Below, in pieces: positions 3,422-34,028 of a stretch of DNA of 64,000 bases (positions are counted from its first letter, which is position 1; every line of letters starts with the position of its first letter). The DNA comes from Alicyclobacillus herbarius DSM 13609 (GTDB taxonomy: Bacteria > Bacillota > Bacilli > Alicyclobacillales > Alicyclobacillaceae), in assembly GCF_000430585.1 (NCBI RefSeq), contig NZ_AUMH01000017.1, positions 1 to 64,000 on the forward strand. Reading direction: 5' to 3'. The notes beneath the pieces are model-generated. The model was not told where the DNA came from. It searched no databases and saw only the letters and a program-made list of their open reading frames with translations. The position numbers and the translations under genes are program-made.

Positions 3422-5845
3422 ATGTACGCTCGTTTTACCGAGAGAGCCCAAAAGGTGTTGGCTTTGGCACAGGAAGAGGCGGCTCGTCTGCGTCACCCGG
3501 GAGTCGGCACAGAGCACATCCTGCTCGGCCTGGTCCGGGAAGGCGAGGGCATCGCCGCGAAGGCGTTGGCGAGCCTCGGCGTCAGCGCGGACAAGGTGCA
3601 GGCGGAGGTGGAGAAGATTATCGGGCCTGGGCAGAGCCAGGTTGGCCCAATGACCTATACGCCGCGTGCGAAGAAAGTGATTGAACTGTCGATTGACGAA
3701 GCGCGCAAACTGAACCATACGTACGTCGGAACGGAGCACATCCTCCTTGGTCTCATCCGCGAAGGCGAGGGCGTGGCGGCCCGCGTACTGGGCAACCTGG
3801 GCGTCAGTTTGAACAAGGCCCGCCAGCAGGTCCTGCAGCTGTTGGGTGGGGATGTGGTTGACGGCGGTCCGGATAAGGAGGCCGCCGGCACGCCGACGCT
3901 GGACAGCTTGGCTCGCGACCTGACGCAGATGGCGCGGGACGGCAAGCTCGATCCGGTCATCGGACGCAACCAGGAGATTGAACGGGTCATTCAGGTGCTC
4001 TCTCGGCGGACGAAGAACAACCCGGTGCTGATTGGGGAACCGGGTGTCGGGAAAACGGCCATCGCCGAAGGGTTGGCTGAGCGCATCATTGCCGGCGAGA
4101 TCCCAGAGACCTTGCGCAACAAGCGAGTCATGGTACTCGACATGGGCACGGTGGTCGCCGGCACCAAGTACCGCGGCGAGTTTGAGGACCGATTGAAGAA
4201 GATTATGGAAGAGATCCGCCAGGCGGGCAACGTCATTCTGTTTATCGACGAGCTGCATACCTTGATTGGCGCCGGCGGGGCGGAAGGCGCGATTGACGCT
4301 TCCAACATCCTCAAGCCGGCCTTGGCCCGCGGTGAGCTACAGTGCATCGGCGCCACTACGCTTGACGAATATCGCAAGCACATTGAGAAGGACGCCGCGT
4401 TGGAACGTCGCTTCCAGCCGATTATGGTCGACCAGCCGACCCCGGAAGAGGCGGTGCAAATCCTGCACGGCCTGCGCGACAGGTACGAGGCGCACCACCG
4501 CGTTAAGATTACCGATGAGGCCTTGGAGGCGGCCGTCAAGCTGTCTGACCGGTACATTACCGACCGGTTCCTGCCGGACAAGGCGATTGACCTCATTGAC
4601 GAAGCCGCATCCCGCGTGCGCCTGCGCACCCGCACTGCACCGCCGAACTTGAAAGAGCTTGAACAACGGTTAGAGCGCGTGCGCAGCGAAAAAGACGCGG
4701 CGGTCCAGAGCCAGGAATTCGAAAAGGCTGCGGCCTTGCGCGACCAGGAGCAGAAACTCAAGCAAGAACTGGAGGAGCGCAAGGAAGAGTGGAAACGGCA
4801 GCAAAACGATAACGACGTCAAAGTGACCGCGGAGGATATCGCCTACATCGTGTCGTCGTGGACAGGCATTCCGGTCAAGCAGCTGGCCCAGGAAGAATCA
4901 GAACGCCTGATGAATCTGGAGCAAATCCTGCACGACCGGGTTATCGGCCAAGACGAAGCGGTGACCGCTGTGGCCCGCGCCATCCGACGCGCCCGGGCCG
5001 GGCTCAAAGACCCCAAGCGGCCCATCGGATCGTTCATCTTCCTCGGCCCCACCGGCGTGGGCAAGACCGAGCTGGCGCGCGCCTTGGCGGAGGCGATGTT
5101 CGGCGATGAAGACGCGATGATCCGCATTGACATGTCGGAGTTTATGGAGCGCCATTCGACCGCGCGGCTGGTCGGCGCGCCTCCCGGATATGTGGGTTAT
5201 GAGGAGGGCGGCCAACTGACCGAAAAAGTCCGGCGCAAACCGTACTCGGTGGTTCTGCTCGACGAAGTTGAAAAGGCACACCCGGAGGTGTTCAACATCC
5301 TCCTGCAGGTGCTTGACGACGGCCGACTGACGGATGGTAAGGGGCGCACCGTGGATTTCCGTAACACGGTCATCATCATGACCTCCAACGTCGGCGCCGA
5401 GATGATTCGCAAAGGCGGCACGCTCGGCTTTAAGCCGGACACGGCGCACGAGTACCAGGGCATGAAAGACAAGGTGATGGACGAGCTCAAGCGCACCTTC
5501 CGGCCAGAGTTCCTCAACCGGATTGACGAAATCATCGTCTTCCATCCGCTAGATGAAGCGCAGATTTCGCGCATTGTCGACCTGATGGTGCGCGACCTGC
5601 AGAAGCGTCTGCAGGAGCAGGAGATTGAATTCACCTTGACCGACGCGGCGAAACAGTTCTTGGCCAAAGAAGGGTTCGATCCGCAGTACGGCGCGCGTCC
5701 GCTCAAGCGTGCGATTCAGCGCCACATTGAGGATAAGCTGTCCGAGGCGCTGCTCAGCGGCGAGGTCAAGCGGGGAGACAAGGTCCGTCTGGACGTGGAG
5801 GACGGAGCGCTCAAGGTGGAACCGGCGCTGGCCGAAACGACCTGA
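3422..5845 (+). CDS. clpC: ClpC AAA+ unfoldase, ATPase subunit of ClpCP
   Basis: ClpC is a cytoplasmic hexameric unfoldase that feeds substrates, including arginine-phosphorylated proteins, to ClpP. The 807-residue protein has two N-terminal Clp repeats (residues 1-145), a first AAA module with Walker A GEPGVGKT and Walker [10 protein letters not shown], the coiled-coil middle domain with a UVR motif (near 410-470), and a second AAA module with GPTGVGKT and [14 protein letters not shown]. The C-terminal D2-small domain closes with [22 protein letters not shown]. The start [13 protein letters not shown] is conserved. It is the last gene under direct CtsR control before the hairpin at 5893. Confidence 0.98.
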
Positions 5846-5892
5846 TGAAATAGTCGTTTCGCTGAGTCCGTAGCGGTAGCATGATTCCGTCG

Positions 5893-5917
5893 CGGCGGGG
5901 AGAAATCCCCGCCGTTT
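5893..5917 (+). terminator. Probable terminator after clpC
   Basis: A 9-bp GC-rich stem (CGGCGGGGA/TCCCCGCCG) closes a GAAA tetraloop and is followed by only three Ts. It may be partial and allow read-through into radA. Confidence 0.6.
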
Positions 5918-5987
5918 GCATGTACAAGATTTGATACTTCATCGGCCCTCGCTTGCGGTATGATGAGTACGTATGGGGGCGGTGCCG

Positions 5988-7340
5988 GTGGCAAAAGTCA
6001 AGAGCCGTTATGTATGTCAAGCATGTGGATACGAGACCGTAAAGTGGTTTGGCCACTGCCCGGGTTGCGGCGAGTGGAATACCGCCACGGAGGAGAAGCC
6101 GCCTGTAAGGCCAGAACGCCGGTCATGGATAACGGGAGGCAGTGGCGTCTGTCCGCTCGTCTCCGTACCGGCGATGGAGAGTCACCGCGTGGCGAGTGGC
6201 ATCAAGGAGCTGGACCGGGTGCTCGGGGGCGGCGTGGTGGCCGGATCGCTCATCCTGGTTGGCGGAGATCCGGGAATCGGCAAATCAACGTTGCTGCTCC
6301 AGGTTTCACAACAGGTGGCGAAAACCGGCGATGTCCTGTATGTATCAGGTGAGGAGTCGGTGCAGCAGATTAAGCTCAGGGCGGAGCGCCTGGGAACACT
6401 GAATGAGCACCTGTACGTCCTGGGGGAGACAGAGATGGAGCGGGCGCTGGCCGTCGTCGACGAGGTCAAGCCCCAGTTCGTTATCATCGACTCGATTCAG
6501 ACGGTCTATTCGTCGGCGCTCTCCTCGGCGCCAGGCAGCGTCTCCCAGATCCGTGAGTGCACCGGGATGCTGCTTGAGGTGGCCAAGCGCCGGAACATTG
6601 CGACCTTCATCGTCGGGCACGTGACCAAAGAGGGCAATCTGGCCGGGCCCCGGGTGCTCGAACATATGGTTGACGCGGTGCTTTACTTTGAAGGGGAACG
6701 GCATCATACTTATAGAATATTGAGGGCAGTAAAGAACCGGTTTGGATCGACCAACGAGCTAGCGATTTTCGATATGAAAGAAGATGGGCTGCGGGAGGTC
6801 GCCAACCCTTCCGAGCTGTTTTTATCGGAACGCGGTCACCACGCACCTGGATCAGCCGTGACGGCTGCGATGGAAGGGTCACGCCCTTTGTTGGTGGAGG
6901 TTCAGGCGCTGATTGCGCCGTCCGGTTTTGCGAACCCGCGCCGGATGGTGACGGGAGCCGACTATAACCGGATGTGTCTCATCCTGGCGGTGCTGGAACG
7001 GCGGTTAGGGTTGCGTTTGCAAAACGCGGATGCTTATGTCAACATCGCAGGCGGGGTGAAAGTCGACGAGCCGGCCGTGGATCTGGGCCTGGCGTTGGCC
7101 TTGGTCTCGAGCTACCATGACCGGGCTTTGCCCAAAGACGACGTGTACATTGGTGAAGTGGGCTTGACGGGCGAAGTCCGCTCCGTCGGCCGTTTGGAGC
7201 AGCGTATCCGGGAGGCGGATAAGCTGGGCTTCGGTCGGTGTTTGGTCCCGGCGCGCAGCATGCGTGGCTTGAAATTGAATCTAAACATCGAGGTTGTTCC
7301 AGTAGAGTCGCTGCATGACGCGATGCAGCAGGTGATGTAG
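5988..7340 (+). CDS. radA: DNA repair protein RadA (Sms)
   Basis: RadA is a RecA-like DNA-dependent ATPase and helicase acting in branch migration during recombination. The 450-residue protein has the N-terminal zinc finger CQACGYETVKWFGHCPGCGEWN, a Walker A GGDPGIGKSTLLLQ, the RadA-specific KNRFGSTNELAIFDM motif and a C-terminal Lon-like domain (VNIAGGVKVDEPAVDLGLALAL). I chose the GTG at 5988, which opens the conserved VAKVKSRYVCQ and has GGGGG 8 bases upstream. An in-frame ATG at 5973 would add five residues and lacks a good site. disA follows by 10 bases, as in Bacillus. Confidence 0.96.
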   Translation: MAKVKSRYVCQACGYETVKWFGHCPGCGEWNTATEEKPPVRPERRSWITGGSGVCPLVSVPAMESHRVASGIKELDRVLGGGVVAGSLILVGGDPGIGKSTLLLQVSQQVAKTGDVLYVSGEESVQQIKLRAERLGTLNEHLYVLGETEMERALAVVDEVKPQFVIIDSIQTVYSSALSSAPGSVSQIRECTGMLLEVAKRRNIATFIVGHVTKEGNLAGPRVLEHMVDAVLYFEGERHHTYRILRAVKNRFGSTNELAIFDMKEDGLREVANPSELFLSERGHHAPGSAVTAAMEGSRPLLVEVQALIAPSGFANPRRMVTGADYNRMCLILAVLERRLGLRLQNADAYVNIAGGVKVDEPAVDLGLALALVSSYHDRALPKDDVYIGEVGLTGEVRSVGRLEQRIREADKLGFGRCLVPARSMRGLKLNLNIEVVPVESLHDAMQQVM

Positions 7341-7350
7341 GGGTGTCGGA

Positions 7351-8430
7351 ATGCGGGACGAGAGCAAGCGGGAAGTAACCTTCAACAAGACGCTGCGAAT
7401 GGTGGCGCCTGGAACCGTACTGCGGGAAGGGATGGAAAATATCCTCCGGGCGAATACGGGCGCTTTGATTGTGGTTGGCGCCACGGAAATGGTTCTTAGC
7501 CTGATGGACGGCGGCTTTTCCATCCAGTGTGACTTGACGCCCTCGAATCTATACGAGCTGGCCAAAATGGATGGGGCCATCATTGTCAGTGAAGACCTGA
7601 AGAAGATCCATTATGCAAACACGAATCTCAACCCCGACCATAAACTGCCGACGTCGGAAACCGGGACGCGCCACCGAACGGCGGAACGGGTCGCGCGGCA
7701 AACCGGGCAGTTGGTCATATGTATCTCCCAGCGTCGAAACGTAATCACATTATATCAGGGCAACTTCAAATACGCCTTGAAAGACATCGGGGTCATCCTG
7801 ACAAAAGCAAATCAGGCCATGCAAACCCTGGAGAAGTATAAGGCCGTCCTGGATCAAGCTCTGACCAACCTTAGCGCGTTGGAATTCGAGGAACTCGTCA
7901 CCCTACAGGAAGTGACCACGGTCCTGCAGCGGGTTGAACTGGTCCTGCGCATCAAGGCGGAGATTCGCCGATACATCACAGAACTGGGGAGCGAAGGCCG
8001 GCTCATCAGCATGCAATTGGAGGAATTGGTATCCCGGGTCGATGAAGAAGCGTATCTGCTGGTGAAGGACTATATGGCCCCTGGACAGGAACGTACGCCG
8101 CACCAAATTTTGTCCGACATTCACGCCCTGGACTCGGAGCAGTTGCTGGACGGACTGGTGTTGGCGCGGATTCTGGGCTATCACAACGTGACCAACATCA
8201 GTGACGAGCCACTGTCATCCAGAGGTTACCGGATTTTGAATAAGATTTCGCGCTTGCCCCAGCCCATCATTGAGAATCTGGTGGAACACTTTACATCACT
8301 GAGCAACATCCTTTCGGCCAGCATCGAAGACCTCGATCAAGTCGAAGGGATTGGCGCGGTACGGGCGCGCACGACCCGCGAGGGGCTGAAACGAATCCAA
8401 GAGCAGGTCTTTATAGACCGCCATATCTGA
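7351..8430 (+). CDS. disA: DNA integrity scanning diadenylate cyclase DisA
   Basis: DisA makes c-di-AMP from two ATP and scans DNA for branched structures, slowing synthesis when it finds damage. The 359-residue protein carries the cyclase motifs DGA (residues 74-76) and RHR (107-109), a central helical spine and a C-terminal helix-hairpin-helix DNA-binding domain (EDLDQVEGIGAVRARTTREGLKRI). It is the expected length and follows radA directly. A second cyclase, cdaA, is encoded at 58137. Confidence 0.97.
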   Translation: MRDESKREVTFNKTLRMVAPGTVLREGMENILRANTGALIVVGATEMVLSLMDGGFSIQCDLTPSNLYELAKMDGAIIVSEDLKKIHYANTNLNPDHKLPTSETGTRHRTAERVARQTGQLVICISQRRNVITLYQGNFKYALKDIGVILTKANQAMQTLEKYKAVLDQALTNLSALEFEELVTLQEVTTVLQRVELVLRIKAEIRRYITELGSEGRLISMQLEELVSRVDEEAYLLVKDYMAPGQERTPHQILSDIHALDSEQLLDGLVLARILGYHNVTNISDEPLSSRGYRILNKISRLPQPIIENLVEHFTSLSNILSASIEDLDQVEGIGAVRARTTREGLKRIQEQVFIDRHI

Positions 8431-8517
8431 GTACAAGGAAGTGCAGGTCAGGAAGCACAAGCCCGTAAATAGAAGTTGGGCCAGGTGATGGGGCGGATTG
8501 TCCAAGGAGGGTGTTCA

Positions 8518-9246
8518 TTGTTCATTAAAGCCATCCCAAGTCTGCTGACCGTGGGAAATTTAATTATCGGGTTTCTGGCCATCGTCAGCGCGTTCCAAGG
8601 TCGTACGGCTGAAGCGGCTCTCCTTGTCATCGCGGGCATGATTCTGGACGGCCTGGATGGACGCGCCGCACGGTGGCTGCACGCGGAGAGCGCGTTTGGG
8701 AAAGAACTGGACTCATTATCGGATATTATTACCTTTGGCGTCGCCCCGTCCCTCATTATGTATCAGGAGGTGCTGCACGCCTTAGGGTGGGCGGGCACCC
8801 TGCTGGCGGTTTTGTTCCCGGTTTGCGGCGCCCTGCGTTTGGCGCGCTTTAACATCCAAACCCGATCCACGAACTATTTTGTCGGTCTCCCAATTACTGC
8901 GGCGGGCGGGATTTTGGCGACGATGGCTCTGTATGGGGATTTAATCCGTTACTCTCAGGTGGCTTTGCCGATTGGGATGTTGATTTTGGCGCTGCTCATG
9001 GTTAGCCGCGCTCGTTACCCGAATTTCAAGAAGGTGGCCTTTCCACGCTCGGCGATTGTCGGTGTACCGCTGCTGGTTGTCTGTGTATACCTGTTGTTTC
9101 GCTATCATTACGCCGGGCTGAACCGGCTGATTTTTGTGCCACTGGCATTGTACGCGGTGTATGGATTCAGCCGCGCCATACGGCGACGGTTGCGGCGCGC
9201 CCGGCATGATGCGGAGATGAAGCCGTATAAACCTGGAGTAAAGTAA
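8518..9246 (+). CDS. pssA: CDP-diacylglycerol-serine O-phosphatidyltransferase
   Basis: This membrane enzyme joins CDP-diacylglycerol to serine, giving phosphatidylserine for phosphatidylethanolamine synthesis. The 242-residue protein contains the complete CDP-alcohol phosphotransferase signature DGLDGRAAR...G...D...D (LDGLDGRAARWLHAESAFGKELDSLSD, near residues 45-71) and several hydrophobic membrane segments. The TTG at 8518 is preferred because AAGGAGG lies 7 bases upstream and the protein then begins directly with FIKAIPSLLTVGN. An upstream in-frame start has no good site. It stands alone between disA and the PIN-TRAM gene, with a terminator behind it. A different acceptor alcohol cannot be fully excluded from sequence. 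Confidence 0.88.
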   Translation: MFIKAIPSLLTVGNLIIGFLAIVSAFQGRTAEAALLVIAGMILDGLDGRAARWLHAESAFGKELDSLSDIITFGVAPSLIMYQEVLHALGWAGTLLAVLFPVCGALRLARFNIQTRSTNYFVGLPITAAGGILATMALYGDLIRYSQVALPIGMLILALLMVSRARYPNFKKVAFPRSAIVGVPLLVVCVYLLFRYHYAGLNRLIFVPLALYAVYGFSRAIRRRLRRARHDAEMKPYKPGVK

Positions 9247-9309
9247 GTCGATGAAAGTGGCTCAATGAAAGTGGCTCGACAGTCCTTCTGGAAAGGCCCC
9301 TAGAAAAAG

Positions 9310-9346
9310 GCCCCGGTCTGCGATAACCCGCAGACACGGGGCTTTT
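9310..9346 (+). terminator. Rho-independent terminator after pssA
   Basis: A 13-bp stem (9310-9322 with 9329-9342, one bulged A) closes a 6-base loop and is followed by TTTT. Confidence 0.85.
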
Positions 9347-9621
9347 GACGCACCTGGCAGGGGGTGTTACACTAAGGGCATCACCCCAATATTTTGCAGG
9401 GATTTGGCCTTATTTTGGACTTATTGTTCGTTTTGTTATCCTTTTTCTTCCGCTATCACGCAAAGCCGCCCGGATTTTGAGAACGGTTCAAGGATGTTCG
9501 GATATGGTCAGAGGTATACGGGGGTTATTGGGATGCAAAACTTTTTCGTATGCCGACTCATTCGGAGCGGTTTGACCATCCGAATTTTGCCCATACTCGT
9601 ATTAGGAGGTGAATCATTCGT

Positions 9622-10716
9622 ATGTTGAAGAGATTTGTCCATCTGTTTTTTGCCGTGATTGGGGTGGTCCTCGGGTATACGTTTGCCCCGGACTTATTCA
9701 CAGAAGTCTTCCATTTGTCTTCCAGGCTCTTTACCTCTCGCCTGTTCGGTGCGGCTTTAGGCGGTGCGATTTTCGTTTTGACGACAACCTGGCTGGTCAA
9801 TTACTTGACCGCCCTCATTCGTTGGCTGGAAGACAAGTTGCAAAAAACACCGTTGGCGGATATCATCGGCGGCACCATTGGCATGGTTATCGGCCTGCTC
9901 GTGACGTACCTGTTTGCTCCGGCGCTGCGCACGATTCCTTTGGTGGGTCTGCCGATACAGTTTTTTGTCACGCTGCTATTGGCCTACATCGGCTTGCGCA
10001 TCGGTTTCACCAAGCGAGAAGAACTGGTGGGGTTATTCGCCGGAAAGCTGTCCCATCGGGAGAAAGACAAAGACAAGGAACGGGATAAGAAAACTGGCTT
10101 CCGTCCGGGCGAAGCAAAACTGCTCGATACCAGTGTCATTATCGACGGGCGGATCGCCGACTTGGTGGAGACCGGTTTTCTGGACGGGGTCCTGGTGATT
10201 CCGTCGTTCGTCCTGGAGGAATTGCAGCATATCGCCGACTCCTCCGACGTTCTCAAGCGCAACCGCGGTCGCCGCGGGTTGGACGTACTGGGCCGTATCC
10301 AAAAAGACTCCAAGGTCCGCGTCCAGGTCATGGAAATAGACTTTGACGACATCCAAGAGGTCGACAGCAAGCTGGTGCGGCTGGCCAAACAGATTCAAGG
10401 CAAAGTCGTCACGAATGATTTCAACTTGAACAAGGTTTGTGAGTTGCAGGGCGTCCACGTCTTAAACATCAACGACCTAGCCAACGCACTCAAACCGATT
10501 GTGTTGCCGGGCGAGGAGCTGAACGTCCAGGTCATCAAAGATGGCAAAGAACACAACCAGGGTGTCGCCTATCTGGATGACGGCACGATGATTGTGATTG
10601 AGGGTGGCCGCGAGTACATCGGTGGCCGCGTGGAAGTGCTGGTTACCAGCGTGCTGCAAACCTCAGCGGGGCGGATGATTTTTGCCAAACCGAAGCTGCT
10701 GGAAAAAGCTTTATGA
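9622..10716 (+). CDS. yacL: PIN/TRAM domain membrane protein (YacL family)
   Basis: The 364-residue protein has about four N-terminal membrane segments (residues 1-120). A charged linker rich in Lys, Asp and Arg follows, then a PIN nuclease-type domain beginning [20 protein letters not shown] with conserved acidic residues (D in DTS, E in EELQ, D in TNDFNLNK), and a C-terminal TRAM domain ([20 protein letters not shown]). PIN and TRAM domains bind or cut RNA in other proteins, but the YacL substrate is not established as far as I know. An AGGAGGTGA site precedes the ATG. In Bacillus the following gene is ispD; here it is absent. Confidence 0.93.
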
Positions 10717-10775
10717 AACGGGGCCAGGGCGTATAACGCGGGTTTCCTGAGCCTGGCGGAGTCAGCCGCGCGATG

Positions 10776-10806
10776 TTGGTGCGAAACCAGCGATATGGTA
10801 TATAAT
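10776..10806 (+). promoter_or_regulatory. Possible promoter of ispF
   Basis: TTGGTG (10776-10781) precedes TATATAAT. With TATATA (10799) the spacing is 17; with TATAAT (10801) it is 19. The -10 is strong and the -35 is weak. Confidence 0.45.
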
Positions 10807-10837
10807 GAGTAGAGTACGCGATGAGCGATGTGTTACG

Positions 10838-10865
10838 GGACCGGCGCTGTCTGTGCCGGTCCTTT
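10838..10865 (+). other. Hairpin in the ispF leader
   Basis: GGACCGGC (10838-10845) pairs with GCCGGTCC (10855-10862) around a 9-base loop and is followed by TTT. It sits between the predicted promoter and the ispF start. It could be a weak terminator or attenuator, or only a structured leader. Confidence 0.4.
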
Positions 10866-10887
10866 CGTAGGATGAGGGGGATTTCGG

Positions 10888-11364
10888 GTGCGAATCGGTC
10901 TGGGCTTTGACGTGCATCCGCTGGTGGAAGGGCGGCCGCTCGTCCTCGGCGGCGTGACCATCCCGTTTGAACGCGGACTGGATGGCCACTCCGACGCGGA
11001 TGTGGTGCTGCATGCGGTGATGGACGCGATGCTGGGGGCTTTGGCGTTAGGGGATATTGGCCAGCACTTTCCGAATACGGACAGCCGGTATCGCGGCGCG
11101 GATAGCCGCGCACTGGCGCGCCAGGTGTATCAGTTGGTACAAGCGCGTGGCTACCGACTGGGCAACCTCGATGTGATGGTGCTGTGTGAGCGGCCCAAGC
11201 TGGCGCCCCACATTCCGCAGATGCGCCAGGGGATGGCGGAGCTGTACCAGGCGCGGGTGGAACAAATCAGCGTCAAGGCGACGACGGCAGAACGTTTGGG
11301 TTTTATTGGCCGTGAGGAGGGTATTGGGGCGCAGGCTGTGGTTTTATTGACGGCAGCGGAATAA
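10888..11364 (+). CDS. ispF: 2-C-methyl-D-erythritol 2,4-cyclodiphosphate synthase
   Basis: IspF catalyses the fifth step of the MEP isoprenoid pathway, cyclising CDP-methylerythritol 2-phosphate. The 158-residue protein has the metal ligands D8 and H10 in GLGFDVHPL, the DGHSDADVVLHAVMDA segment with the third metal histidine, and the ATTAERLGFIGREEGIGAQAVVLL C-terminal motif. It starts with GTG behind GAGGGGGAT. ispD, which normally precedes or is fused to ispF, is not here and must be encoded elsewhere if the pathway is complete. Confidence 0.97.
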   Translation: MRIGLGFDVHPLVEGRPLVLGGVTIPFERGLDGHSDADVVLHAVMDAMLGALALGDIGQHFPNTDSRYRGADSRALARQVYQLVQARGYRLGNLDVMVLCERPKLAPHIPQMRQGMAELYQARVEQISVKATTAERLGFIGREEGIGAQAVVLLTAAE

Positions 11365-11396
11365 AGTCTACGATACGGCGGGAGAGATGGGACACA

Positions 11397-12842
11397 ATGA
11401 GCATCCGTGTGCGTTTTGCACCAAGCCCAACCGGGCACCTACATATCGGCGGGGTCAGGACCGCCTTGTTCAATTGGTTGTTTGCCCGTCACCATGGCGG
11501 AAAGTTCATTCTGCGCATAGAAGATACTGATTTGGAGCGCCACGTGGAGGGGGCCGAGGCGGAGATGCTCGCCGGCTTTCGCTGGCTGGGCATGGAATGG
11601 GATGAGGGCCCAGACATCGGCGGTCCTAAGGGGCCCTACCGATGTACCGAGCGGCTGCCTCGTTATGAGGCTGCGCTGAAGCGGCTGGTAGAAGCCGGCC
11701 TGGCTTACCCTTGCTTCTGCACGGCCGAAGAACTAGAGGCCGAACGGGACGCCGCCTTGCGCAAGGGCGTTGCTCCCCGTTACAGTGGCCGCTGCCGACA
11801 CTTAAGTGAAAGTGAGCGCCAAGCGCGCCTGGCGGCTGGCGTTCCACACACCTGGAGATTGGCCGTGGTACCCGGACAGACCCTGACCGTATCGGACCAA
11901 GTTCGCGGCCGGATCGAGTTTAAGAGCGATGATTTGGGGGACTTCGTCATCGTCAAAACGAACGGGATACCGACCTACAACTTCCAAGTGGTGGTCGACG
12001 ACGCCCAGATGGAGATTACCCATGTCATTCGTGGCGAGGAACACCTGTCCAACACCCCGCGGCAGCTGTTGGTTTATCAAGCCCTGGGCTACCCGGTCCC
12101 CGTCTTCGCGCATCTGCCGCAGGTTTTGAACGAGCAAAAAAAGAAGCTGAGTAAGCGCGATCCGAACGTACAACCGGTGGACGCCTACCGGCAGCAGGGC
12201 TACCTGCCAGAAGCGTTGGTCAACTTCCTGGCGCTCTTGGGCTGGTCGCCGGGAGATGAAACGGAGATCCTTTCCCTGTCCGAACTCTGCCAGCGCTTTG
12301 ACCTCGACCGGGTCGGCGTCAGCGGGGCCGTGTTTGACCCGCAAAAGCTACACTGGATGGCCAACCAATACTTTAAATCCGCCGACCTGGCGCGCGTGGT
12401 CGATTTGGTGGCGGACAGACTATCGCAGCGTGGTGTGGCGCTGCCCGAAGGCTGCGGCCGCGATTGGTTGGCGGGCGTGGTGGAACTGTATCAGGAGCAG
12501 TTAGCCTGTGCGGACGAGTTTGTCGATTTGGCAGCCGGGTTTTTCACCTCTCGGGTGACGCTCGACGACGAAGCGAAAGAGGTGTTGGCGGATTTAAAGG
12601 CGCGGGACGTGGTGCGCCGCTATCTGGAGCTGGTGGAAGCCGATGCCGAGCCGTGGACCGTCGAGGCAAGCAAGGCTCGCTTCCGTCGCATCCAGCAGGA
12701 ACTGGGTGTGCGCGGGCGCGGACTGTATATGCCGGTGCGGGCGGCGTTGACCGGAACTGTGCACGGTCCAGACCTGCAAAAGACGATTGCTCTTTTGCCG
12801 CGCGGTTGGGTGCAGACACGATTAGCCAACGCATTGGGATAA
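11397..12842 (+). CDS. gltX: Glutamyl-tRNA synthetase
   Basis: This class I aminoacyl-tRNA synthetase charges tRNA-Glu and, in most Bacilli, also tRNA-Gln, which is then amidated by GatCAB. The 481-residue protein shows the HIGH-type motif in SPTGHLHIGGVRTALFNWL at the N-terminus and a KMSKS-type motif KKLSKRD near residue 245. The length fits bacterial GltX. It follows ispF by 32 bases and precedes cysS; the cysE gene that separates the two in Bacillus is missing. Confidence 0.97.
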   Translation: MSIRVRFAPSPTGHLHIGGVRTALFNWLFARHHGGKFILRIEDTDLERHVEGAEAEMLAGFRWLGMEWDEGPDIGGPKGPYRCTERLPRYEAALKRLVEAGLAYPCFCTAEELEAERDAALRKGVAPRYSGRCRHLSESERQARLAAGVPHTWRLAVVPGQTLTVSDQVRGRIEFKSDDLGDFVIVKTNGIPTYNFQVVVDDAQMEITHVIRGEEHLSNTPRQLLVYQALGYPVPVFAHLPQVLNEQKKKLSKRDPNVQPVDAYRQQGYLPEALVNFLALLGWSPGDETEILSLSELCQRFDLDRVGVSGAVFDPQKLHWMANQYFKSADLARVVDLVADRLSQRGVALPEGCGRDWLAGVVELYQEQLACADEFVDLAAGFFTSRVTLDDEAKEVLADLKARDVVRRYLELVEADAEPWTVEASKARFRRIQQELGVRGRGLYMPVRAALTGTVHGPDLQKTIALLPRGWVQTRLANALG

Positions 12843-18678: not shown

Positions 18679-19380
18679 GTGGCTCGGAAATCGAAACGTT
18701 TCCAGGAAGCTGTGCAGCGTGTGGACCGTACGAAAGAGTACGAACCCCGCGAAGCGATTGAGCTGTTGAAGCAGGTCGCCACAGCGAAGTTTGACGAGAC
18801 GGTGGAAGCTGCCGTCCGGCTCGGGGTTGACCCGAAGAAGCAGGACCAGCAGATCCGTGGCGCGGTCGTGCTGCCGCACGGCACGGGCAAAACGGCGCGT
18901 GTGCTGGTGTTCGCCAAGGGAGACAAGGCGAAGGAGGCGCAGGCGGCGGGCGCCGATTTTGTCGGTGACGACGACTTGATTCAGAAGGTGGCACAGGGCT
19001 GGATGGACTTTGATGTAGTGGTGGCCACGCCCGACATGATGGGCTCAGTGGGTCGCCTCGGACGCATCCTCGGTCCGAAAGGCCTGATGCCGAACCCGAA
19101 GACCGGTACGGTTACGTTTGAAGTCGCCCGCGCGGTCGAAGAAATCAAGGCCGGTAAGATTGAATACCGTCTTGACAAGGCCGGCAACATCCATGTCCCG
19201 ATTGGTAAGGTCTCGTTTGATGTGGATGCCTTGCTTGGCAACCTGCGGACGTTGGTCGACGCGCTGCAGAAGGCGAAGCCGGCGGCAGCGAAAGGCCAGT
19301 ACTTCCGCAACCTGTCCATCTCCAGCACGATGGGCCCGGGCATCCGGGTGAACGTGCAGCGGTTGGTGGCGGCGGAATAA
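18679..19380 (+). CDS. rplA: 50S ribosomal protein L1
   Basis: L1 binds the mobile stalk of 23S rRNA and can repress its own operon. The 233-residue protein has the L1 signature [34 protein letters not shown] in its second domain. It starts with GTG immediately behind GGAGGTGA. It follows rplK by 85 bases, which is the standard order. Confidence 0.97.
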
Positions 19381-19469
19381 GGCGTATCTACGTGTCCAAG
19401 ACTCGCCGGGCGCCGAGGGTTGACCGCTCGGCGTCCAGCGGTTAAGATGGAACGTGCCAAATGAATACC

Positions 19470-19571
19470 GGATGAACCGTAGACAGTAGGTCCAACCACT
19501 GGACAATGGAGGACGGAGGTCTTCCGCCTACCGAGGTTCGCGATTCGTCGTCTCCGATTGGGAGAATCGCG
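19470..19571 (+). ncRNA. L10 leader RNA (attenuator of rplJ-rplL)
   Basis: The sequence folds like the ribosomal L10 leader family. GAACC (19474-19478) pairs with GGTTC (19535-19539), and GTAGG (19486-19490) pairs with CCTAC (19527-19531) across an asymmetric loop containing TAGACA. Two small hairpins lie inside (near 19491-19502 and 19508-19525). An 8-bp stem CGCGATTC/GAATCGCG (19539-19546 with 19564-19571) overlaps the 5' arm of the terminator at 19568, so the two are mutually exclusive. Family knowledge: L10-L12 binding to the leader favours termination. Confidence 0.8.
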
Positions 19572-19598
19572 CCCCGCGTCTGCGGAGGCGCGTTTTTT
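19568..19598 (+). terminator. Attenuator terminator in the L10 leader
   Basis: CGCGCCCCGC pairs with GCGGAGGCGCG (one bulged A) around a GTCT loop and runs into six Ts. Its 5' arm shares bases with the antiterminator stem at 19539-19571. Confidence 0.88.
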
Positions 19599-19651
19599 AT
19601 GCGGCGATTGCGTATGGCGATGCGTCGGTTCATCCCAATTGAAAAAGAGGG

Positions 19652-19797
19652 TGTCCGGAAAGGGGTCAGGTAAGACCCAAGCAGTGCAAGGAAGCTAGCC
19701 CAAAATGCGATCCGAGCGTACGTTTTTCGGTACGTGAGGGAGCATTTTGGGCGCTGACGAAGCAATGCGCCGGGGAGTTCTGACCCCTTTCCGGACA
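19652..19797. repeat. Inverted-repeat element, about 146 bp (MITE-like), copy A
   Basis: The ends are a perfect 18-bp inverted repeat, TGTCCGGAAAGGGGTCAG (19652-19669 and, inverted, 19780-19797). A second inverted pair inside, GCCCAAAATGC and GCATTTTGGGC, plus GTACG/CGTAC around a TTTTT loop, lets nearly the whole unit fold into one long hairpin. It has no coding capacity. It lies between the L10 attenuator and the rplJ ribosome-binding site, so it is transcribed in the rplJ leader. Shorter relatives occur at 33973 and 51391. A clear target duplication is not visible. Confidence 0.75.
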
Positions 19798-19821
19798 TGC
19801 AGAAAAAGGGAGGTGGGTTTC

Positions 19822-20331
19822 GTGACCACAGTACGCGAGGAGAAAGAAAAGCTGGTGCAAGAGATTGCCGACAAGTTCAGCCGCAGCAAAGCTGTGATTG
19901 TGGCGGACTATCGCGGACTGAACGTGGCGGAGTCGAACGAGCTGCGCAAGCAGCTGCGCGAGGCGGGCGTCGAATTCAAGGTTCTCAAGAACACGATGAC
20001 CCGGCGTGCGGCCGAAAAAGCGGAGGTTCCTGGTCTGCAGGAGTTCTTCGTCGGTCCGTCGGCTCTGGCCTTCGGCTATGACGATCCAGTCGCGCCCGCG
20101 AAGGTCCTGCACGAATTTGCCCGCTCGCACAAAGCCCTGGAGCTGAAGGGCGGACTCGTGGAGGGTCGCGTCATTACGGCGAAGGAAGTCGAAGGTTTGG
20201 CCAGCCTGCCGTCCCGCGAAGGCTTGCTGTCGATGCTGCTTAGCGTCATGCAGGCGCCGGTGCGCAACCTGGCGTACGCCATCAAGCAGGTGGCGGAGCA
20301 GCAGGGCGGCGAAGCGGCGGCTGCGGAGTAA
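19822..20331 (+). CDS. rplJ: 50S ribosomal protein L10
   Basis: L10 anchors the L7/L12 stalk and represses its own operon through the leader at 19470-19598. The 169-residue protein has the conserved N-terminal rRNA-binding part ([50 protein letters not shown]) and a helical C-terminus for L12 dimers. The GTG at 19822 follows GGGAGGTGGG with suitable spacing. Upstream in-frame starts fall inside the repeat element. Confidence 0.96.
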
Positions 20332-33932: not shown

Positions 33933-33972
33933 GGTTTTAATCGACGTGACGGTACACGCTTGAATCAAGTAT

Positions 33973-34004
33973 CGGAAAGGGAGACGCAAGCCCCCTTTCC
34001 GGAC
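33973..34004. repeat. Short inverted repeat related to the TGTCCGGAAAGGGG element, copy B
   Basis: CGGAAAGGG (33973-33981) and CCCTTTCCG (33993-34001) are a perfect 9-bp inverted repeat followed by GACA, matching the end sequence of copy A (CCCCTTTCCGGACA). There is no T tract, so it is not a typical terminator. Confidence 0.5.
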
Positions 34005-34028
34005 AACCGTTGAAACGTCAATCGACTA

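Follow-up and report, generated by a model that had tools for sequence, protein, structure and literature searches.

The leader of rplJ in Alicyclobacillus herbarius DSM 13609 holds a unit with perfect inverted ends, and this raises the question of whether it is a structure that serves the ribosomal protein operon or a mobile element inserted there. The analysis of the window, i.e., the whole stretch of 64,000 nucleotides that carries the unit, and of related genomes favours the second answer. With a probability of about 0.92, the unit represents one copy of a transposable element that is MITE-like and non-autonomous.

The unit is located between rplA (TIGR01169) and rplJ (NF000955), downstream of the L10 leader, and both the attenuator and the rplJ ribosome-binding site are intact beside it (Table 1). 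The placement given by the original prediction, with a ribosome-binding site about 10 bases past the right end, is confirmed. Its 18-bp terminal inverted repeats (TIRs) are indeed perfect, the two arms being 100% complementary and the sole inverted repeat reported in 19300-20000 with the settings used, and the internal 11-bp inverted pair was also found. The predicted single long hairpin is recovered by RNA folding of 19640-19830 (−98.6 kcal/mol, z −9.44, as good in 0 of 200 shuffles), and 19647-19802 folded as single-stranded DNA gives a z of −8.81. The TIR word, with at most three mismatches, occurs three times in the window while 0.09 occurrences are expected. The length of 146 bp initially attributed to the unit holds as the span from TIR to TIR, but the inserted segment is really about 154-156 bp, because the tips outside the perfect TIRs belong to the element.

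Table 1. Features of the rplA-rplJ region (positions in the window)
Feature	Positions	Strand	Basis or remark
L10 leader with attenuator, uninterrupted by the element	19459..19608	+	Rfam RF00557 (37.6 bits, E 0.0026; gathering score of 44 not reached)
Terminator-like stem in the L10 leader	19575-19592		Shuffles average 0.7 such sites
Left copy of target duplication GAAAAAG (core AAAAA)	19641..19647	.	Empty-site alignment; family statistics
Whole inserted element	19648..19801	+	154 bp, taking GAAAAAG as the duplication; G001 and G002 have the empty site
Alternative element limits	19647-19802		156 bp; family's tips and 5-bp core duplication
Left TIR, TGTCCGGAAAGGGGTCAG	19652..19669	+	Inverted-repeat search
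Inner stem 5' arm, GCCCAAAATGC	19698..19708	+	Pairing kept via two-sided changes in other copies
Inner stem 3' arm, GCATTTTGGGC	19742..19752	+	Pairing kept via two-sided changes in other copies
Right TIR, perfect complement of left TIR	19780..19797	-	Inverted-repeat search
Right copy of target duplication GAAAAAG	19802..19808	.	Empty-site alignment
rplJ Shine-Dalgarno run, GGGAGGTG	19808..19815	+	Starts 10 bases past the right arm; retained in the empty-site alignment
rplJ, ribosomal protein L10, GTG start at 19822	19822..20331	+	NF000955, E 6.7e-57

The segment 19648-19801 is an insertion, with GAAAAAG flanking both sides. The rplA-rplJ gap is uninterrupted in both congeners searched (G001 and G002), so that the comparison with relatives proposed in the original prediction yields an empty site in two of two cases. 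After removal of the element and one GAAAAAG, the own sequence CCCAATTGAAAAAGGGAGGTGGG aligns there without any gap to CCGAATTCAACAAGGGAGGTGGG of G002 and CCGAATTCAGCAAGGGAGGTGGG of G001; the other gaps of this alignment are 13 bases located about 20 bases further upstream and two bases after the Shine-Dalgarno run. A search of 37 genomes gave 30 rplJ loci, and only the own one carries a TIR pair within 500 bases upstream of rplJ. One further locus shows a single one-sided TIR match at four mismatches.

The family is dispersed and multicopy, both in the own genome and in relatives, as was expected of a mobile element in the original prediction. Searched with the element, the own genome yields 25 matches (two for some of the copies), and 13 of the 61 genomes of the relatives sample have matches as well; among the matches listed in an order-wide search, 13 of the 59 genomes, distributed over 7 of the 25 genera, have the element. 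The own genome has 70 occurrences of the TIR word (at most three mismatches) versus three of a reversed control pattern. A slightly degenerate TIR has 175 matches in G018 and 89 in G003, a genome of the same family as that of the window. At the same stringency, it has no match in G001 or G002, and each of these two congeners has one partial match to the element. All fetched loci together contain 133 TIR pairs of 32-280 bp (counted after merging of those that share their 15-base flanks, and with an upper limit of 330 bp). Seventy of them are exactly 145 bp, 22 lie in own-genome loci, one belongs to a Gemmataceae and a few short ones are possibly due to chance. Ten identical pairs are seen in a set of 19 full G018 copies, selected by locus, and none in the six own copies of 146-148 bp (both values being string similarities, not alignment identities). 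Since the own full-length copies differ from each other, there is no sign of recent movement in the own genome.

A probable second copy is seen in the window itself, a 45-bp degenerate short form (33965..34009, strand not assigned) located downstream of tuf (TIGR00485) and flanked by TTGAA at 33960-33964 and 34010-34014; it is graded as probable because its left tip is poorly conserved. Outside the order, the 18-mer of the TIR (GAGTCTGTCCGGAAAGGGGTCAG) occurs in a Gemmataceae MAG at six places in five stretches (L155, L165, L166, L184 and L194), on palindromic sequences and preceded by GAGTC. Single matches, perhaps fortuitous, occur in Rhodococcus, Histidinibacterium and a Desulfuromonadales MAG. 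Viral contigs gave no exact match; plasmids gave one match (E 6) and phages four (E 10).

Eighteen own copies fit intergenic positions and overlap the chosen ORFs by up to 31 bases, according to a crude longest-ORF reading that left out ORFs spanning an element and is no test of intergenic placement. Ten neighbour proteins were assigned by family: metK, sucC, zwf, sigK, rplT, aroB, yicC, gmk, nuoL and a glutamate dehydrogenase-like protein, this last one below the cut-off. The metK, rplT and yicC genes each have a copy within about five bases of their stop codon. This distribution bears on the possibility that the unit is a conserved cis-acting structure of the rplJ leader, taking part in L10 autoregulation, as its position in a presumably transcribed leader and its very stable hairpin could suggest. 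Such a structure is refuted by the empty gap of both congeners, by the presence of the TIR pair in only one of 30 rplJ upstream regions and by the copies that adjoin the genes from metK to nuoL listed above, and it retains practically no credence. The original prediction held that a sequence kept at this site and absent elsewhere would point to a leader structure; the reverse is seen, with dispersed copies and a single occupied rplJ region.

Comparison of the copies also defines the ends of the element and its target. Conserved tips are seen outside the 18-bp repeats, GTGCG preceding one TIR and ACCTC following the other. Of 125 copies, 69 have identical 5-mers on their two flanks and 30 have identical 7-mers, while shuffling gives a mean of 7.5 (maximum 17) for the former and 2.9 (maximum 9) for the latter. 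These 125 copies are the 133 pairs minus two (one with an N in its flank, the other being the Gemmataceae one) and minus six with an unfitting right tip, among them the window copy, whose tips are swapped. Position by position, the agreement between flanks is 0.79-0.82 at positions 3-5 versus 0.41-0.44 expected from composition, and 0.86 and 0.82 at positions 2 and 6 versus 0.72. Position 1 is at its expected level (0.54 versus 0.53) and position 7 is slightly raised (0.65 versus 0.54). The flanks of the window copy match over 7 bp. A duplication of 7 bp was considered for the family and dropped, since these position-by-position statistics favour a 5-bp core. These comparisons are read as a duplication of about 5 bp, TWWWA, within a preferred target CTWWWAG.

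The features of a MITE are therefore found in this family: short, gene-free copies, perfect 18-bp TIRs, a target duplication together with an empty site, and dispersal over the own genome and its relatives. The longest TIR pair being 280 bp, with a pairing limit of 330 bp, the element is too short for a transposase gene, which agrees with the non-coding nature that had been predicted. The original prediction proposed either a MITE or a REP-type element. Many copies, the empty site and the target duplications argue for the former, whereas an element of about 155 bp with target duplications does not fit the latter. REPs are described as palindromes of 20-40 bp with an unpaired GTAG or CGTC tag (PMC3733652), whereas 146 bp separate the outer ends of the TIRs here and the tips are GTGCG and ACCTC; an identity as REP or REPIN was therefore rejected.

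Such an element would be moved in trans by a transposase recognising ends of the form G[AT]GnnTGTCCGG (G[AT]GnnTGTCCGGAAAGGGG). Four families of transposases were searched: DUF772 (8 genomes, 10 matches), DDE_Tnp_1 (5 genomes, 18 matches), Y1_Tnp (3 matches in the own genome and 47 in 10 other genomes) and Tn3 (10 genomes, 4 matches). For Y1_Tnp, 33 of the 50 loci were read, i.e., the three own ones and 30 of the 47 others, while the DUF772 and DDE_Tnp_1 loci were judged among the inverted repeats listed (up to 8 and 5 per locus, respectively). In the loci read, no transposase of these four families is bracketed by the ends of the element, and the enzyme with the same ends that the original prediction had in mind was not found among them. 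The fetched loci contain 1199 long end pairs (300-7900 bp apart), of which four have identical flanking 5-mers after merging of duplicates. None of these four was retained as an autonomous copy, L179 and L299 being pairs of short or half copies and L164 and L213 having weak ends. An element of G046 with DUF772 and DDE_Tnp_1 matches was also rejected as a parent: it begins with GAGTCTGTCCGAC beside CTAG and only its first letters are similar. A few of the transposase loci have a one-sided match to the ends; for instance, a family copy of G046 (L328, near 1109) is located about 400 bp from a DDE_Tnp_1 gene, which is probably a coincidence.

The TIRs of the element contain GGGGTCAG, which fits GGGGWSAS, the motif reported by Di Nocera and colleagues in TIRs adjoining tyrosine transposases (TIRtrons or TIRYT repeats; PMC3733652). 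Furthermore, the Gemmataceae MAG that has the same 18-mer at six places also has six Y1_Tnp matches. A REP-type tyrosine transposase might thus move the family, which would then be a TIR repeat of the TIRYT kind. However, unlike TIRtrons, the element has target duplications, and the 33 Y1 loci that were read out of the 50 matches include none with the ends on both sides of the transposase gene. The ends were sought at up to 3 or 4 mismatches, a setting at which a more diverged TIR would escape. Target duplications are not generally expected of Y1/HUH enzymes. In G003, a Y1 gene that contains an in-frame stop has a family copy (L351, about 1115-1315) some 190 bp away, on a single side and probably by coincidence. 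Movement by a tyrosine transposase is hence rather unlikely. A derivation from Tn3 elements, as in TIMEs, appears highly improbable. TIMEs are also non-autonomous, and the duplication that they produce is likewise short (5 or 6 bp) and AT-rich, but they are usually single-copy (PMC4133298), whereas the present element is multicopy. Its TIR is not of the 38-bp Tn3 type, as judged against a local Tn3: the full-length Tn3-family transposon of G003 (L384, about 5331-11504, about 6.2 kb) has GGGGTACCGCCAACAAAACGC ends unrelated to those of the element. Moreover, there is no Tn3 transposase match in the own genome, G001, G002, G018, G039 or G046.

The TIR and target of the rplJ-leader family presumably differ from those of RUP, NEMIS, ERIC, Nezha and EFAR. 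In its way of working, the element would resemble these and other bacterial MITEs by analogy, and bcr1 in particular. Bacterial MITEs are described as 70-300 bp long, with TIRs, non-coding, often near genes, transcribed and able to form strong structures (PMC3733652); unlike for them, no parent transposase was found for the present family among the four families searched. The bcr1 element of the Bacillus cereus group is of about 150 bp, intergenic and MITE-like, and is often located in UTRs or between the genes of operons (PMC6542083, PMC3446304). Its size is given as 147 in the literature, or 167 (PMC2267715), and the mobility of bcr repeats is tied to an AT-rich TTTAT motif (PMC6542083, PMC3446304). 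The two differ, in a comparison made by description only, as the present family targets TWWWA within CTWWWAG, occurs in other taxa and has modular interiors. The family was not found at title level in the mostly non-subscription literature on MITEs and transposable elements of Alicyclobacillus and Alicyclobacillaceae, nor in that combining rplJ and MITE. The family is regarded as new, whereas its general type, that of the bacterial MITEs, is known.

The hairpin of the element has evolved in a particular way. In an alignment of 31 full-length copies (34 non-redundant ones of 83, minus three structural variants), 97.5% of the structure cells pair. Changes on both sides are seen in 75 cells, whereas shuffling gives 28.0 and sliding of the partners no more than 19. 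The signal is weaker for two of the five covariation measures, namely pairs changed on both sides (11 versus 7.8; 2/500 shuffles) and pair types (36 versus 34.0; 47/500). In the inner stem, outside the TIR, three pairs have changes on both sides. The interiors differ in kind: there are forms of about 38 bp and others of 188-196 bp and 205-214 bp, a nested hairpin module being present in several, and half elements also occur. The tips of 118 copies could be oriented (15 of the 133 pairs could not): 113 are standard, four are undecided and the window copy alone is swapped relative to its interior. The inner loop is inverted in one other copy versus standard in 100.

The nested hairpin module CGTTTAGGCCGGGCGATAGCC is found at 14 places of the own genome (L006, L007, L008, L010, L011, L012, L013, L014, L017, L018, L340, L342, L343 and L344), at differing positions, some copies having a GACAACAGTCC palindrome. 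It was rejected as an independent repeat, as nine of the 14 lie in paired copies, one beside a partial match (L018) and four with at least one matching end.

The shared changes of the arms can also be explained by selection on the hairpin. The element could thus be kept because its structure is used; it might serve as an RNase III site, for instance, or as a stability element in the rplJL mRNA. The two-sided changes keep pairing, even in the inner stem, and repeats of B. cereus are often transcribed, one of them, bcr3, being correlated with mRNA half-life (PMC3446304). However, the family is patchy across species (13 of 59 genomes of the order), the rplJ site is empty in both congeners and the same covariation could be produced by template switching (PMC8794818). 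A retained function of the hairpin is therefore considered unlikely. Template switching between inverted repeats is known to yield arm homogenisation and spacer inversion (PMC8604942), and hairpins can be created and maintained by this process (PMC8794818). As arm homogenisation and interior inversion are two known results of template switching, the pattern of changes in the aligned copies favours it over RNA selection as the probable source of covariation.

Remodelling of a long palindrome by replication template switching would make the arms match and allow the interior to flip, and could account for two traits of the window copy, its perfect TIRs and its flipped interior. More broadly, though doubtfully, the family might be a natural record of template switching on mobile palindromes. 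One TIR pair would then be found with interiors that were homogenised, inverted, shortened (about 38 bp) or enlarged by nested modules, the covariation would come from mutation and not from RNA selection, and the rplJ leader would hold one inverted copy. The co-changed hairpin arms of this family, present in many copies, might help to tell whether compensatory changes in hairpins are a sign of selection or simply of template switching.

At the rplJ locus, read-through of the attenuator would carry transcription into the element, which would form a self-contained hairpin in the mRNA, following the leader and preceding the ribosome-binding site of rplJ. The insertion may have been tolerated since the attenuator, the Shine-Dalgarno run and its spacing to the start codon stayed intact. 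A promoter scan of the element found none. In predicted folds of 19440-19900, the Shine-Dalgarno/start region is paired to a similar extent in both cases, with a mean unpaired probability of 0.28 with the element and 0.23 without it; these numbers, like those given below for the leader helix, are weak, as they depend on the true start of the transcript. The element is most likely a tolerated passenger in the rplJ mRNA, and the effect on mRNA stability or translation suggested in the original prediction would be hypothetical. A ribosomal protein operon that tolerates a large hairpin between its attenuator and its ribosome-binding site offers a natural test of how strict this spacing is.

The same folds draw attention to a long-range helix of 9 bp, formed by GGATGAACC (19470-19478) and GGTTCATCC (19627-19635), that would enclose the whole L10 leader, including its terminator, just upstream of rplJ. 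Its predicted probability is about 0.95 with the element versus 0.43 without it. A perfect leader-closing helix of 9-11 bp is present in eight of the 30 rplJ loci (the window and L216, L219, L221, L233, L222, L225 and L226), the remainder having one of at most 8 bp or none found. In three of these eight loci, the helix has a different sequence, AGCGAAAGGC with GCCTTTCGCT, and this comparison of sequences hints at a conserved pairing across rplJ loci.
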